From IMG/VR virus record IMGVR_UViG_3300035698_030599, positions 1 to 25,520 of that record: DNA of 25,520 nt. The stretch is one strand, 5' to 3'. The translations under genes and the position numbers were made by a program. Within the stretch, counting starts at the first letter, position 1; every line of letters begins with the position of its first letter. The notes beneath the pieces are model-generated. The model had not been told where the DNA came from, ran no database searches, and saw only the letters and a program-made list of their open reading frames with translations. Positions 1 to 23,787 of the stretch are shown here, piece after piece. The stretch comes from a virus.

Positions 1-416
1 AGAATCTCTCTGGTGAACTTCTCATGTCGGAAACGATCTACTCCCTCTTCCCTGCTAAAAACTGGTATCTTGCAAGTCGGGTCATACATGCCGACAAGAT
101 CAAAACCAGCTTTAACAGCTATCGTTGAGGGGAAAAGAACTTGGAAGACAAAGCCTGGGGTAATCTTACCAAGATCATGCAAAGCGCAGAAGAAAGGAAG
201 AAACCTTCGTAGTTCGTCAACAGTAAGATTAAGATTCAGGGCGGCAGTTTCCCTCTCTATCGGAGTAAGTCTGTCGAAAACGGCAAGAGATGTGAATCCA
301 ACATCAAGCATATGGAAAAGAGTCGGATGAGTCTTTCCTGTCTTGTCATCGTATTTGCCCCATAGCGCGCTATGAAACTGCTCGATGCTGTTCCATGATT
401 TCTTAGGCTCAAACAT
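1..416 (-). CDS. cas3: Cas3, N-terminal HD nuclease part (gene runs off the left edge)
   Basis: The minus strand is open from codon 1 to the window edge. Translation shows a Cas3-type HD domain. Numbered from an upstream ATG at 440, it has a tryptophan-containing start region (LWGKY, 26-30), a histidine followed by Asp (H43-M-L-D46), the signature ALHDLGK (H88, D89, K92) followed by a Phe-rich stretch, and RHE near the edge. This is the order seen in Cas3 HD nucleases, which degrade Cascade-bound target DNA in type I systems. The helicase part would lie outside the window. I chose the ATG at 416 because AAGGA lies 8 nt upstream; the ATG at 440 has no Shine-Dalgarno. It sits just after the CRISPR array on the same strand, with a candidate promoter between. 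Which type I subtype the effector belongs to cannot be seen from this fragment; the repeats suggest I-E. Confidence 0.88.
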   Translation of the reverse strand, partial: MFEPKKSWNSIEQFHSALWGKYDDKTGKTHPTLFHMLDVGFTSLAVFDRLTPIERETAALNLNLTVDELRRFLPFFCALHDLGKITPGFVFQVLFPSTIAVKAGFDLVGMYDPTCKIPVFSREEGVDRFRHEKFTREI

Positions 417-467
417 CCTTGGCTTCCTTACAAGTTCCATTTGGAAAATTCATCATCAACAATGGTA

Positions 468-495: not shown

Positions 496-555
496 GAGAA
501 AAATCAAATTTCTGTAAGATAATTTTAGGACATGATACGCTATTTATTGTGCGTG

Positions 556-1008
556 AATACACCCCCGCATTGCGGGGAAGACAGTATAACCGAGGGAAGC
601 AATAATATAGTAGGAGGAGCACCCCCAAGTGTGTGGGGAAAATGGCTCTGACTCACATTGTCAGTCTAACGGTGCGGGACACCCCCGCGCATGCGGGGAA
701 AACTATAGCGAAGGCTTTCCATCCTCACCCTTCAGCGGAACACCCCCGCGCATGCGGGGAAAACAGCCAGGTGAGCTACCAGTTCGTCGAAGCGATCGGA
801 ACACCCCCGCGCATGCGGGGAAAACTAAGAATTGTGAATCTTCGTTTGAGATCGAACCGGAACACCCCCGCGCATGCGGGGAAAACGGATTCGAACCTGC
901 GACCACTCGAGGCTGGGCCGGAACACCCCCGCGCATGCGGGGAAAACTCATGATCTACATCAGACGTACTTATTACAGCCGGAACACCCCCGCGCATGCG
1001 GGGAAAAC
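556..1008 (-). CRISPR. Type I-E-like CRISPR array, 8 repeats and 7 spacers
   Basis: Six near-identical 28-nt repeats lie at 676-703, 737-764, 798-825, 859-886, 920-947 and 981-1008, separated by 33-nt spacers. Two decayed repeats lie at about 556-582 and 616-643. Read on the minus strand, each repeat begins GTTTTCCCCGC, has a GC-rich palindromic middle and ends GGGTGTTCC, the typical I-E form whose last 8 nt become the crRNA 5' handle. Repeat decay on the left also places the trailer there and the leader at the right (1009 onward). The repeat at 676 differs at one base (GGGAC for GGAAC on the plus strand). The spacers at 765-797 and 887-919 resemble tRNA genes. No cas1 or cas2 is in the window, so whether the array still grows is unknown. 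The cas3 gene starts 140 bases past the trailer end. Confidence 0.97.
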
Positions 1009-1114
1009 ACTTCCAAAAGCAACGTAGAACCAGAACTTATGAACAAAAGCTCCGATTATTACGATAAGAAGTCTTTATTAGAACCTCTACGACTATTCAA
1101 ATATCAAAAAGCCT
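1009..1114 (-). promoter_or_regulatory. Putative CRISPR leader, AT-rich
   Basis: This 106-base AT-rich stretch lies between the RNA ligase stop codon and the first intact repeat, at the leader end predicted from repeat polarity. I see no convincing promoter: TTGATA and TAATAA occur on the minus strand but 21 nt apart. The array may therefore be read from the upstream minus-strand operon. Confidence 0.4.
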
Positions 1115-5186: not shown

Positions 5187-6863
5187 TCATTTCATAGAGA
5201 TAGTGTATATCTCCGCTCCCCTCGTGAACATCAGCTTCATTCCCTTGTGGAACAATCTCATATCTCCACAAATTACAGGATCTTCGATTACCTTCGCGTT
5301 CGACTCTCCATTCTTGTTAAGGAAAAGCTCAAGCTTCTCTTCCTCTGTCAGATGGGCGCATATCCCGTTAGGAAGGACAACGAAGTTTGGTTCGTGGACT
5401 CGCACATCAGATGCGATCCTAACATCGTATGTAGTGAATGTCTCATCGAAACGAAAGATGAACTTATCGTATTTGCCCTGCTTACTAGCGACGACCATGA
5501 GAACGTTGCCATAATACTTGGCAGAAGCAATCTTGTAGTCCTTTAGCTCGTCAATCTTCACTTGGTAGCAATGCTGAGGCTTCGGGAATACCGTAGCATA
5601 CCATGCACCCAAAACATCCTGCATCACCACCCCGTCAAAGATGTTACTGGCTTTTTCCATCACATTGCCAGAGACCCTAACCGAGCATTGAACGTTGTTC
5701 CCAAGTTCCACAAACTGCAACTCAAGCATCTCCCCGCCCTTCTTGATGTAAATCCTGCCTTCACAGGACATCAAGGCTTCTCCCTCAAGATCTGCTGACA
5801 TCACTTGTCTTGCAGTCGCATCATACACAACCACTTTGCCGTTGTTTAGATAAGCGGAAACTACATGGTTGAGTACAGGGCTTATACCGACATGGACGTT
5901 AGAAGGGACAGACGGGTCCAAATGTCGATGCACAAACAATCCGCCTGTCGTAAGGAAAGCTTCCTGCCCGTCGAACCAATCATATCCGACGATATCGTCT
6001 TGGAAGTCTCGATACATTTTGATCTCGAAGTTATCTGTTCCAGTGACAGTCTTTATGACCGTCTGCACAACGATAACAGCCTGGGCATCAAGCGGAGGAG
6101 GGATTCGCTTCCCATCCTCAAATACAGCCTTGTACCAATCCCTGAACGCCTGAGGGATAGTATCAAAATCTGGACATATCCTTGGAATAGAGACATCCGC
6201 ATTGAATACGGATATGTTCCCCTTCATCCTAGCATCAAGGTCTTTCACCTGCTTATGTTTTCCCTTGTAAGGATGAATCCCCATCCACATCTGGAAGGTT
6301 ACGATCCCCCATGAGAACCAATCCGTCACCACACTAAAAGACTTTGCATGTCGATCTCTGATACTGTCCATGATCGCCGTTGCAGGAAAGCTGGGAGTCT
6401 GGTAGCTGTCCACATCGATGAAGTAGATATTTGTGAACTTATGATCCGCCAGGAAATTGAGTTCATTCAGGTCTACGATCAGTATGCCCTTGGAATGCAC
6501 ATGATCTACTGAGCCACGAAAGCCCAGCATCATCTTGAGTATCTGTTTCGCCGTTAGGTTGTTTCTCTTTTTGAACGCCATCGGGAAAAGCTGGCACAAT
6601 GCGTATACATCTTTGACGTATCTCATCGTGTATCCCACAGGCTTGTTCCTGGAGTCCAAGAGAACCTTGGTGGGACGTATGATATTCGGGTCTGTGATCA
6701 GGGATAGCTCATCCATCTTTGCGGGAGAGATCATCTTCTTAGGGTCTTTGTAAATCTTAAAAGCGGTTTGACCCTTTGCGTATACTGAACCTTCACCTCC
6801 TGAGGCCAGGAATTCCCTTTGCGTTACCGTAACGTTTCCGCCGCCCTTGATCTTAAGTTTCAT
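5187..6863 (-). CDS. Ser/Thr protein kinase of the TerY-P triad (COG4248-like)
   Basis: The first ~280 residues are a protein kinase: glycine loop SGGEGSVY (21-28), lysine K36 in AFKIYK, helix-C glutamate probably E52, catalytic D131 and N136 in VDLNELN, and D150-V-D152 in place of DFG (FIDVDSYQ). The IxDxN and IDxDSxQ forms are typical of COG4248 kinases, which occur with vWA and PP2C partners. The remaining ~275 residues are beta-rich with repeated strand patterns, possibly a propeller-like sensor; that part is not recognised. The gene starts 4 bases after the phosphatase stop, with AGGA 8 nt upstream. Kinase, PP2C and vWA genes are consecutive, which strongly supports the triad call. Targets are unknown. 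Confidence 0.87.
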   Translation of the reverse strand: MKLKIKGGGNVTVTQREFLASGGEGSVYAKGQTAFKIYKDPKKMISPAKMDELSLITDPNIIRPTKVLLDSRNKPVGYTMRYVKDVYALCQLFPMAFKKRNNLTAKQILKMMLGFRGSVDHVHSKGILIVDLNELNFLADHKFTNIYFIDVDSYQTPSFPATAIMDSIRDRHAKSFSVVTDWFSWGIVTFQMWMGIHPYKGKHKQVKDLDARMKGNISVFNADVSIPRICPDFDTIPQAFRDWYKAVFEDGKRIPPPLDAQAVIVVQTVIKTVTGTDNFEIKMYRDFQDDIVGYDWFDGQEAFLTTGGLFVHRHLDPSVPSNVHVGISPVLNHVVSAYLNNGKVVVYDATARQVMSADLEGEALMSCEGRIYIKKGGEMLELQFVELGNNVQCSVRVSGNVMEKASNIFDGVVMQDVLGAWYATVFPKPQHCYQVKIDELKDYKIASAKYYGNVLMVVASKQGKYDKFIFRFDETFTTYDVRIASDVRVHEPNFVVLPNGICAHLTEEEKLELFLNKNGESNAKVIEDPVICGDMRLFHKGMKLMFTRGAEIYTISMK

Positions 6864-6867
6864 CGTA

Positions 6868-7707
6868 TTAGTCCTGAATGGCTATAGCTGCCACAGAAAC
6901 ATCATCTGCGTGGTGAACGTTCGCCATAGCGAATCTCGCCAGCCCCTTACGAACTCTTCTCTGCACAAATTGCCCCTTCATTCTGGCAAACGCCATGAGT
7001 TCAGGTAGGACATCCAACATGGGGACTTGTATATTCGATCTCGAAGTCTCTTCTATAATAGTGCGGTAGAAGGATGAAATGCCATCAGAGATCAACGCAA
7101 TACAGCTTATGGAGCTAGTGGGCAAATTAACCCAATGAGGCTTGAGGCAATCTATTGGGGTAGGAGGCTCAGCGATTATGTCATCACCCGATACGATGAA
7201 ACGGTGTAGATGACATTCTTCTCCTACAGCAGCGTAAGCTTCCCTCTTGCGATCATCCACAACGTATGAGATGTATCCTGGGTAGCTTTTACTATATCTT
7301 ACTTCCTCGATAACCAATTCCCCGTTATTGAGGCGATAGACGATTGCGCCATCCCCGAATATCACCCCCACTGTCCTGTCTTGGTCAGCAACAGCCACAA
7401 GCAATGTTGCGTCAATCGCCTGGGCTTTCAGCCCAAGACTTATCGCATTCTTCCTTGCCGCCGAGCCGATTATCTTGGATGCAGTTTCCCAGTCTGAGAA
7501 ACTTTTTGGGCTATTATCAAAACCCACAGTTTTAATGTGAGATATTGTCTCCGTTACAAGCAGCCTTGAACCGAAATCAGAATCAACTGCTGATGAGCAA
7601 CCATCCGACAAAACCGCAACGCAAGCTTCGCCTTCGAGAAAAGTCCTCGCGTAGTCTTGGCAGACTGTGTGCGATGATCCGATTGTAAAAAACGAGTCAG
7701 CATGCAT
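6868..7707 (-). CDS. PP2C-family protein phosphatase of the TerY-P triad
   Basis: The 279-residue protein has PP2C metal-site motifs: H13 and D18 (SHTVCQDYA), LSDGCSSA with D35-G36, a middle GDG (IFGDGAIV), ISDGISSF in the third quarter, and a final DDVSVAAI. PP2C enzymes remove phosphate from Ser/Thr using two metal ions; here the obvious counterpart is the kinase encoded next. It lacks a membrane segment. The start ATG is preceded by GGGGAG, which sits at the foot of a perfect 12-bp hairpin (7719-7750), so translation may depend on that structure. The order vWA, PP2C, kinase on one strand fits the TerY-P triad of Anantharaman, Iyer and Aravind. Confidence 0.87.
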   Translation of the reverse strand: MHADSFFTIGSSHTVCQDYARTFLEGEACVAVLSDGCSSAVDSDFGSRLLVTETISHIKTVGFDNSPKSFSDWETASKIIGSAARKNAISLGLKAQAIDATLLVAVADQDRTVGVIFGDGAIVYRLNNGELVIEEVRYSKSYPGYISYVVDDRKREAYAAVGEECHLHRFIVSGDDIIAEPPTPIDCLKPHWVNLPTSSISCIALISDGISSFYRTIIEETSRSNIQVPMLDVLPELMAFARMKGQFVQRRVRKGLARFAMANVHHADDVSVAAIAIQD

Positions 7708-12862: not shown

Positions 12863-13831
12863 CTAAAAGAAATCCGATTGATCGAAGTATTCGATGCCAA
12901 GCCGTTTGGCAAAAGTCTTATCCGTTGTGCGGTCCCCTACCATGATACATTTCGAGGGGTCTAGTTTGTGCTTAAGAATCAAGGATACGCCCATACCAGA
13001 TTGAGGCTTCCTGCAATAGCACACAGGAGGAGTCCCATGCGGGCAATAAGCCACTTCGATATCCATTCCAAGATCTTTATTCGTCTTCGAGAAACAAGCA
13101 TGAGCTTGTTCTTTCGTCAACTGAACTCCACCATACTTATTCTTCGTTGCCATCCCCGATTGATTAGATGCTCCCAAAATGAGGTATCCCTCTTTCACAA
13201 GCTCCTGAATCTTTTCTTTCCTACCTGGTAAAACCCTAACTTGGCTCGGAGCGGTTGGGTATTTGAATTCCCCTCCTACCACTTCCCTCAGCGTTCCGTC
13301 ATAATCGAAGATTACCGCTTTGGACGTATGCCCAGGGCGAGGCGCTCTTATAAAAGTCACCTTTGAGACTTTGGAAAACCCCTCCCCAGTAGTGGGCTTC
13401 TGGAATGCTTTCTTGAACTTGAAGAGAACAACGATAGGAAAGATGTTGGAGTCTTTCCTGGCCGCACTAAGTGTTATGTCGTCTGGATGAAGAAACAACC
13501 GCCCGTATCGGTCATGCATGCGATAAAGTGCATTTTGCTGGGCGTCTTCAATCGAAGTCCCCATGAGCATGCATTCAACATCTACACCTGCCTTCTTCGC
13601 CGCAGCGACGAATGGGGCCCTAGATTCCACAGTTGGGAACAGATTGTCAAGAACAACATTTTTACCAGAAGCAAGAGCTTCTTCCATCTTGGGAACCAGG
13701 GCAACTACTCTACCACCTTCTTTATCCCTATTAAGATGAACGAAACCTTGATCTATGAAAGTTTGGCTCAGCGTCCCTTTGCCAGACGCTGGGAACCCCA
13801 TTACTACCACCACTTTGGCATTTCGCTGCAT
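12863..13831 (-). CDS. Polynucleotide kinase-phosphatase (PNKP-like)
   Basis: Two domains are visible. Residues are numbered from a TTG two codons upstream of the chosen ATG. The first half is a P-loop kinase: GFPASGKGT (14-22), the RDK segment (38-40) and a basic lid-like region (about 105-130). The second half is a HAD phosphatase: FDYDGT with D178 and D180, SNQSG (224-228), CYCRKPQSGM (273-282, a metal-binding loop seen in GmhB/HisB-type phosphatases) and VGDRTTD (300-306). The order kinase then phosphatase is that of T4 Pnkp, not of the animal enzyme. These enzymes phosphorylate 5'-OH ends and remove 3' phosphates, preparing breaks for ligation; the RNA ligase at 1115-1897 is the natural partner. 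Start: ATG 13831, with an alternative TTG at 13837 six nt after AAGGA. Its start overlaps the upstream gene. Confidence 0.85.
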   Translation of the reverse strand: MQRNAKVVVVMGFPASGKGTLSQTFIDQGFVHLNRDKEGGRVVALVPKMEEALASGKNVVLDNLFPTVESRAPFVAAAKKAGVDVECMLMGTSIEDAQQNALYRMHDRYGRLFLHPDDITLSAARKDSNIFPIVVLFKFKKAFQKPTTGEGFSKVSKVTFIRAPRPGHTSKAVIFDYDGTLREVVGGEFKYPTAPSQVRVLPGRKEKIQELVKEGYLILGASNQSGMATKNKYGGVQLTKEQAHACFSKTNKDLGMDIEVAYCPHGTPPVCYCRKPQSGMGVSLILKHKLDPSKCIMVGDRTTDKTFAKRLGIEYFDQSDFF

Positions 13832-14247
13832 TTCCAATGTCTTTCCTTGAAGAGTTTATCATACCACATTTTAATGATTGCTGTCTCTTCTTCCGCTGTC
13901 TTAGATTCCTTAAGCTCTTTAAGGAACTCCATAAGGACATCAGGAGAGGAGAGAAGTATTTTTGCGAAGTGTTTTCGTCGTAGTCGCCTGACCGCTGGAG
14001 TGCAGGCAAACACAGCAAGATCCAGTAGGATAAAAACCAAAAGGGCTATAGAACTAAAGGGTTTTGACAATAACCCAGTAACCGCATGGCTAATCGCCGC
14101 GCTTGTTAGGATGATTAACCCCATCCGCCACAACGCAGTCATCCACATCACTTTTTTTCGTGAATACTCTGCGAGTTTTTCCCTATACTCCCGCAAAAAT
14201 GCCATGTCATCATGGTCCAGATTATATTCCGGGATTATATTACCCAT
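13804..14247 (-). CDS. Membrane protein, two TM segments
   Basis: The 147-residue protein has a charged N-terminal helix, two membrane segments (about residues 42-60 and 67-85, the latter SSIALLVFILLDLAVFACTP), and a basic then acidic helical C-terminal half. The long cytoplasmic-looking tail could bind a partner. No family is recognised. Its ATG lies inside the last codons of the preceding gene, and its end overlaps the polynucleotide kinase-phosphatase start, so all three are probably translated in linked fashion. Confidence 0.7.
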   Translation of the reverse strand: MGNIIPEYNLDHDDMAFLREYREKLAEYSRKKVMWMTALWRMGLIILTSAAISHAVTGLLSKPFSSIALLVFILLDLAVFACTPAVRRLRRKHFAKILLSSPDVLMEFLKELKESKTAEEETAIIKMWYDKLFKERHWKCSEMPKWW

Positions 14248-22917: not shown

Positions 22918-23787
22918 TCAACCTTCCTCAAACAAATCAATCTCTTGATTCGGCTCCTCCAATAGTGACGGATCAGAGGATATCAGGAGTTCTACTTTCT
23001 TTCTGCTCGTATTTATCGTGTAAGAGATTGGAATCTCAAGTATGTGAGCCCAATCGTACAGGTCTCGAATCACTTCATGGTCGTCATAAGACAACAGCCA
23101 CTGATTCTCAGTTTTTTGCAAAGCCTTAGCTAGCCTAGTGTGATCCCTTCTGCGGAAGGAATGCTGGTAAAGCTCTGGACCTTTCTTATAGTAAGGAGGG
23201 TCAAGATACAGGAAACGCCTTCCACTCTTTCTAATAAGTTGCCCGAAATCTACATGAGAGCATTTGTCCCCTCTCGCGTCCGTTTGCGACAAAGCTTCAT
23301 GTGCTTTCCTTATCATCTTACACAAATGGTTAGGGCTCCAACGACAGTCAATGGGATACTTGGAAGCTTGAGAGTTCCCACCTAGCGGAGATCCAGACAT
23401 TGTTCCCAAACCAGAATACGATGTTTGGTGTATGGCGATTTTCTTGAAAGCCAAATCTACAACGTCTTCGTTATGTTTCCCAGAAAGAAGCTCTTTCTTG
23501 AACAACTCGAATTTGGCTACACTGGGGACGAAAGCCTTTATCTTCTTGCCCAGTTCTTTAGGATAGAGCATAACCGCCGTCCAGATAGCGGCGATGCCTG
23601 GATCGAAGTCATTGATCCATATGCTTTCTATGGGAGTGATCCCTAGAAGATGGAACTCCATTCCTCCTGCGCCAAAAAATGGTGAAGCAAATTCAATGTC
23701 ATATCCATTCAGCTCATAGAAATACGAGATGCGATCAGCTATTAACCTTTTAATCTTGGCTTTCCCGCCAGGGTATCGCATCAACAC
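22918..23787 (-). CDS. Dam-type DNA N6-adenine methyltransferase (D12 class)
   Basis: The 289-residue protein matches the D12 class: the N-terminal RYPGGKAK (4-11), motif I FFGAGGMEF (38-46), NDFDPG (59-64) and the catalytic DPPY (196-199), followed by LLSYDDHE. These enzymes methylate adenine in short sites, for example to protect phage DNA from restriction. Specificity cannot be read here. Start: GTG at 23787, 8 nt after AAGGA; an ATG two codons later is possible. The ribosome site overlaps the last codons of the GIY-YIG gene. Confidence 0.88.
   Translation of the reverse strand: MLMRYPGGKAKIKRLIADRISYFYELNGYDIEFASPFFGAGGMEFHLLGITPIESIWINDFDPGIAAIWTAVMLYPKELGKKIKAFVPSVAKFELFKKELLSGKHNEDVVDLAFKKIAIHQTSYSGLGTMSGSPLGGNSQASKYPIDCRWSPNHLCKMIRKAHEALSQTDARGDKCSHVDFGQLIRKSGRRFLYLDPPYYKKGPELYQHSFRRRDHTRLAKALQKTENQWLLSYDDHEVIRDLYDWAHILEIPISYTINTSRKKVELLISSDPSLLEEPNQEIDLFEEG

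Follow-up and report, generated by a model that had tools for sequence, protein, structure and literature searches.

Does a virus that carries its own CRISPR array aim it at tRNA genes? The question is raised by a 25,520-base virus fragment from IMG/VR (the window, by which we mean this whole stretch of DNA), in which an earlier note had read two of seven spacers, 765-797 and 887-919, as pieces of tRNA genes, and had seen in this, together with genes for RNA repair, a conflict centred on tRNA. Taken as a whole, the best explanation, which we regard as probably correct, combines an I-E-like phage array, a spacer 887-919 acquired from a foreign locus bearing tRNA sequence, a chance resemblance in spacer 765-797, and an ordinary use against mobile DNA.

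Array Architecture and Type Assignment

The array is real and lies on the minus strand, where six good 28-nt repeats recur with a 61-nt period at 676-1008, and it adjoins the start of a Cas3 gene. The features of the locus are as follows.

3-440, minus strand: N-terminal HD part of Cas3, truncated at the contig end (PF18019 Cas3_HD, 6.5e-16; best PADLOC model Cas3e, 1.8e-13)
555-582, minus strand: degenerate remnant repeat at the trailer end (11/28 mismatches in this register; the shifted core CACCCCCGCATTGCGGGGAA is near-identical)
616-643, minus strand: degenerate repeat (7 mismatches)
676-1008, minus strand: six good CRISPR repeats, GTTTTCCCCGCATGCGCGGGGGTGTTCC(+G), 61-nt period
765-797, minus strand: spacer GATCGCTTCGACGAACTGGTAGCTCACCTGGCT, tRNA likeness not above chance, open frame DRFDELVAHLA
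887-919, minus strand: spacer GGCCCAGCCTCGAGTGGTCGCAGGTTCGAATCC, the last 23 nt corresponding to the anticodon-stem 3' strand, variable loop and T-arm of a tRNA
1009-1114, minus strand: probable leader, an A+T-rich gap upstream of the array in the crRNA sense and opposite the degenerate end

The array and the coordinates of both spacers had been given correctly, and the minus-strand reading was right as well, given the degenerate repeats at the low-coordinate end and the G with which all six clean spacers start on this strand. This initial G is presumably the PAM-derived last base of the repeat, as is typical of type I-E; since every clean spacer begins with it, the functional repeat would be 29 nt long and the spacers 32 nt, values that agree with type I-E. 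To count seven spacers one has to accept the remnant near 555 as a repeat, and we therefore speak of about seven.

The palindromic repeat of 28-29 nt, the spacers of 32-33 nt and the PAM-derived terminal G all agree with type I-E, and so does the Cas3 fragment, with its HD domain (PF18019) and Cas3e as the best PADLOC model. The contig stops within Cas3, so that genes for Cascade (Cas8e, Cse2, Cas7, Cas5 and Cas6e) and for Cas1 and Cas2 are out of view. The array is type I-E-like, phage-borne and short. No relatives of the Cas3 encoded at 3-440 were found among viral contigs of IMG/VR or phage records, and neither Cas3 nor the spacers were found in eight viral records that encode a related RNA ligase. 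The 25-nt core of the repeat had no match in the genome contigs collection, and the 27-nt core had none in IMG/VR. Short repeats spaced 73-74 nt apart were seen in the terminal region (1-250) of a 323-kb viral contig.

tRNA Likeness of the Spacers

For each spacer the best ungapped score was taken over a set of 118 distinct phage and E. coli tRNAs, and 3,000 non-tRNA 33-mers drawn from DNA of the same sorts served as the control. Spacer 887-919 reached a best score of 23 (23/23 identities, to a tRNA-Pro), where the control maximum was 14. The statement that this spacer ends with the T-arm consensus is thereby borne out, and its tRNA likeness above chance is confirmed. The last 23 nt are identical to phage tRNA-Pro genes and contain, in order, the anticodon-stem 3' strand, a TGGTC variable loop, the GCAGG stem and the T-loop. 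By BLAST the spacer matched 949 phage records, and among the matches listed many lie at annotated tRNA genes. The first 10 nt would correspond to the anticodon loop, but read CCCAGCC and lack the T33...R37 pattern that 91 of 94 class I tRNAs show. Their fit to tRNA is intermediate at -0.7 bits (random median, -4.8), and 11% of real tRNAs fit equally poorly. Searches of the array with Rfam returned no family at its gathering score, the only match being a weak one to tRNA-Sec at 876-932 (14 bits, E 6.5).

Spacer 765-797 had been described as a near-match to the acceptor end and D-arm of a tRNA, but its score of 10 was reached by 25% of the control 33-mers (118-tRNA set) and by 31% of the 33-mers of the window (168 tRNAs), so that a quarter or more of ordinary sequences do equally well. 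At tRNA position 15 it reads C, although the D-arm pattern caught 48 reference tRNAs of which 46 show a purine there. Among the matches listed, 35 in phages and 7 in plasmids, not one falls at an annotated tRNA, all being located in protein genes or unannotated DNA; as the plasmid tables contain no RNA genes, the phage result is the informative one. With a score at chance level, a pyrimidine at position 15 and no annotated tRNA at the phage matches, the reading of this spacer as a tRNA piece was rejected. One of its frames reads DRFDELVAHLA without a stop, which is weak evidence of a coding origin because most frames of 11 codons are open by chance. The resemblance of spacers 826-858 (GGTTCGATC) and 644-675 to tRNA was likewise at chance level in this scoring.

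Of the two proposed tRNA pieces, then, 887-919 stands and 765-797 does not, and the view that two of seven is far beyond expectation falls with it, since only one of about seven spacers is tRNA-like. Two such spacers would have been notable. By our estimate, some 6-9% of arrays would contain one tRNA spacer among seven if their spacers were sampled from DNA like that of the viral records with a related RNA ligase. Seven of eight such records contain tRNA genes, up to 39 in 323 kb, and in the richest of them these genes make up about 0.9% of the genome. As competitors such as related large phages are rich in tRNA genes, a single tRNA spacer is unremarkable, and the array looks like the outcome of ordinary spacer capture rather than of a programme aimed at tRNA. 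One of the viral records that encode a related RNA ligase, with 39 tRNA genes in all, contains a region in which such genes are very densely packed.

Protospacer Searches

No full-length protospacer was found for any spacer searched in phages, plasmids, IMG/VR and 84,980 genomes; the collection scans used exact cores, by which diverged targets escape detection, and the set of spacers scanned differed between collections. For spacer 887-919, scans of IMG/VR found neither the 22-mer core nor the 17-nt left part, and the 84,980 species genomes likewise gave no match to the 22-nt core. The exact core of spacer 948-980 had no match in IMG/VR, and a codon-degenerate scan with spacer 765-797 returned none. 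The four remaining clean spacers had no match in phages, in a search of lower sensitivity with queries joined by runs of N. A single 20-nt match to the core of spacer 704-736 was rejected since both flanks mismatch.

Because no protospacer was found, we infer the target class, the PAM and the function of the array, and likewise the use of its crRNAs. These would most likely guide Cascade and Cas3, supplied by the phage or by its host, against competing mobile DNA, as in other phage-borne arrays. Spacer 887-919 was probably captured from a single foreign locus containing the 3' half of a tRNA, and would represent one incidental target among about seven, since tRNA genes abound in rival large phages and tRNA-derived attachment sites are common among mobile elements.

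Possible Targets of Spacer 887-919

In type I-E systems the seed is PAM-proximal. The tRNA-like part of spacer 887-919 is PAM-distal, and the seed falls in the unusual anticodon-loop-like CCCAGCC. As the predicted seed lies outside the generic T-arm, the guide is likely to be specific to one locus rather than a generic cutter of tRNA genes. We expect this locus to be a phage-type tRNA gene of odd sequence or an attachment site derived from a tRNA, two readings of similar weight. Of the targets proposed earlier, tRNA genes of rival phages and tRNA-integrated elements thus remain. A tRNA gene of the host appears less likely, given the poor fit of the seed half to normal tRNAs and the lack of a match to the 22-nt core in the 84,980 genomes, a set that need not include the host.

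That the spacer targets an unusual tRNA gene of a competing phage approaches an even chance in our judgement. The relatives are rich in tRNA genes, the T33...R37 pattern is likewise missing from its expected place in 7 of the 135 class I tRNAs of the set, and from the sequence both testable anticodon-stem pairs can form (30-40 as G-C, 31-39 as G-U). Such a gene would, however, need C33, C37 and C38 together, and the lack of an IMG/VR match for the 22-nt core and the 17-nt left part speaks against it. The other reading, that the target is the attP or att junction of a tRNA-integrating prophage, phage satellite or other mobile element, with unique element DNA in the seed and the tRNA 3' part PAM-distal, is a tentative one that we place short of probable. 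It would account for the switch, at about nt 11 of the spacer, from non-canonical sequence (no T33, no purine at 37) to perfect tRNA. Similar partial tRNAs occur at phage sites without a full tRNA by ARAGORN, for instance in ctl617 and at the end of prophiGD51-2, and the CRISPR system of ICP1 is used against a chromosomal satellite (PMC11656645). Against the junction, no attP match was found, and an odd tRNA gene fits nearly as well: in Stenotrophomonas phage Yut2, a tRNA-Ile shares the stem, the variable loop and C33 with the spacer and agrees with it at 27 of 33 positions. It appears unlikely that the guide acts on the attachment site of a satellite or prophage in such a way that integrated or circularised copies are cut and the host tRNA gene is spared through mismatches in the seed. 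If true, a guide on a tRNA gene or tRNA-derived attachment site would offer a useful case for how the host's own tRNA genes are spared. The main yield of the analysis is that a false second tRNA match is removed and one modest lead is left.

Relation to Known Systems

CRISPR arrays borne by phages are already known. Those of huge phages are compact, with a median of six repeats, and their spacers target other phages and sometimes host translation genes, e.g., a glycyl-tRNA synthetase (PMC7162821). Compact phage arrays mostly lack acquisition genes and are directed at other phages or host genes (PMC7162821, PMC13037316). The present array is likewise compact and located in a virus genome, but differs from those of huge phages (PMC7162821) in being I-E-like, in the Cas3 start beside it and in having one spacer with tRNA sequence. 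With the type I-F CRISPR-Cas system of ICP1, directed against PLE (PMC11656645), it shares a phage-encoded type I machinery and a possible use against an integrating parasite; here the type is I-E-like, and the target is known only for ICP1. CRISPR-associated transposons that home near tRNA genes (PMC11656645) also have a guide related to a tRNA locus, but in our case there is a Cas3 HD domain, and the guide is not delocalised but encoded by a spacer within a normal array. No Tns or TniQ family was detected among the window proteins searched. A full-text literature search, itself a narrow test, gave no direct precedent for spacers said to target tRNA genes.

RNA-Repair Genes and Other Genes of the Window

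The RNA-repair genes noted earlier are real: an RNA ligase gene lies at 1115-1897, and a kinase-phosphatase gene at 12863-13837 encodes a polynucleotide kinase domain and, after it, a HAD phosphatase domain, an arrangement also seen in T4 Pnkp. No link between these genes and the spacer was found, and a conflict centred on tRNA has no support beyond them. Their presence beside one tRNA-like spacer could be taken to mean that the spacers cut host or rival tRNA genes while the ligase and kinase-phosphatase repair the phage's own tRNAs. We consider this very improbable, as there is one tRNA-like spacer only, the window contains no tRNA gene, and like repair genes occur in other large phages (e.g., the polynucleotide kinase of Yut2 and the RNA ligase of Karimac).

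Elsewhere in the window, a protein-kinase-like gene (weak match) stands beside a PP2C phosphatase gene at 5187-7707, and the N-terminal half of the protein encoded at 18122-19318 matches the CoaB (phosphopantothenate-cysteine ligase) domain. A DNA adenine methyltransferase-like gene is located at 22918-23787, for which the best model in the defence library is PD-Lambda-5_B.
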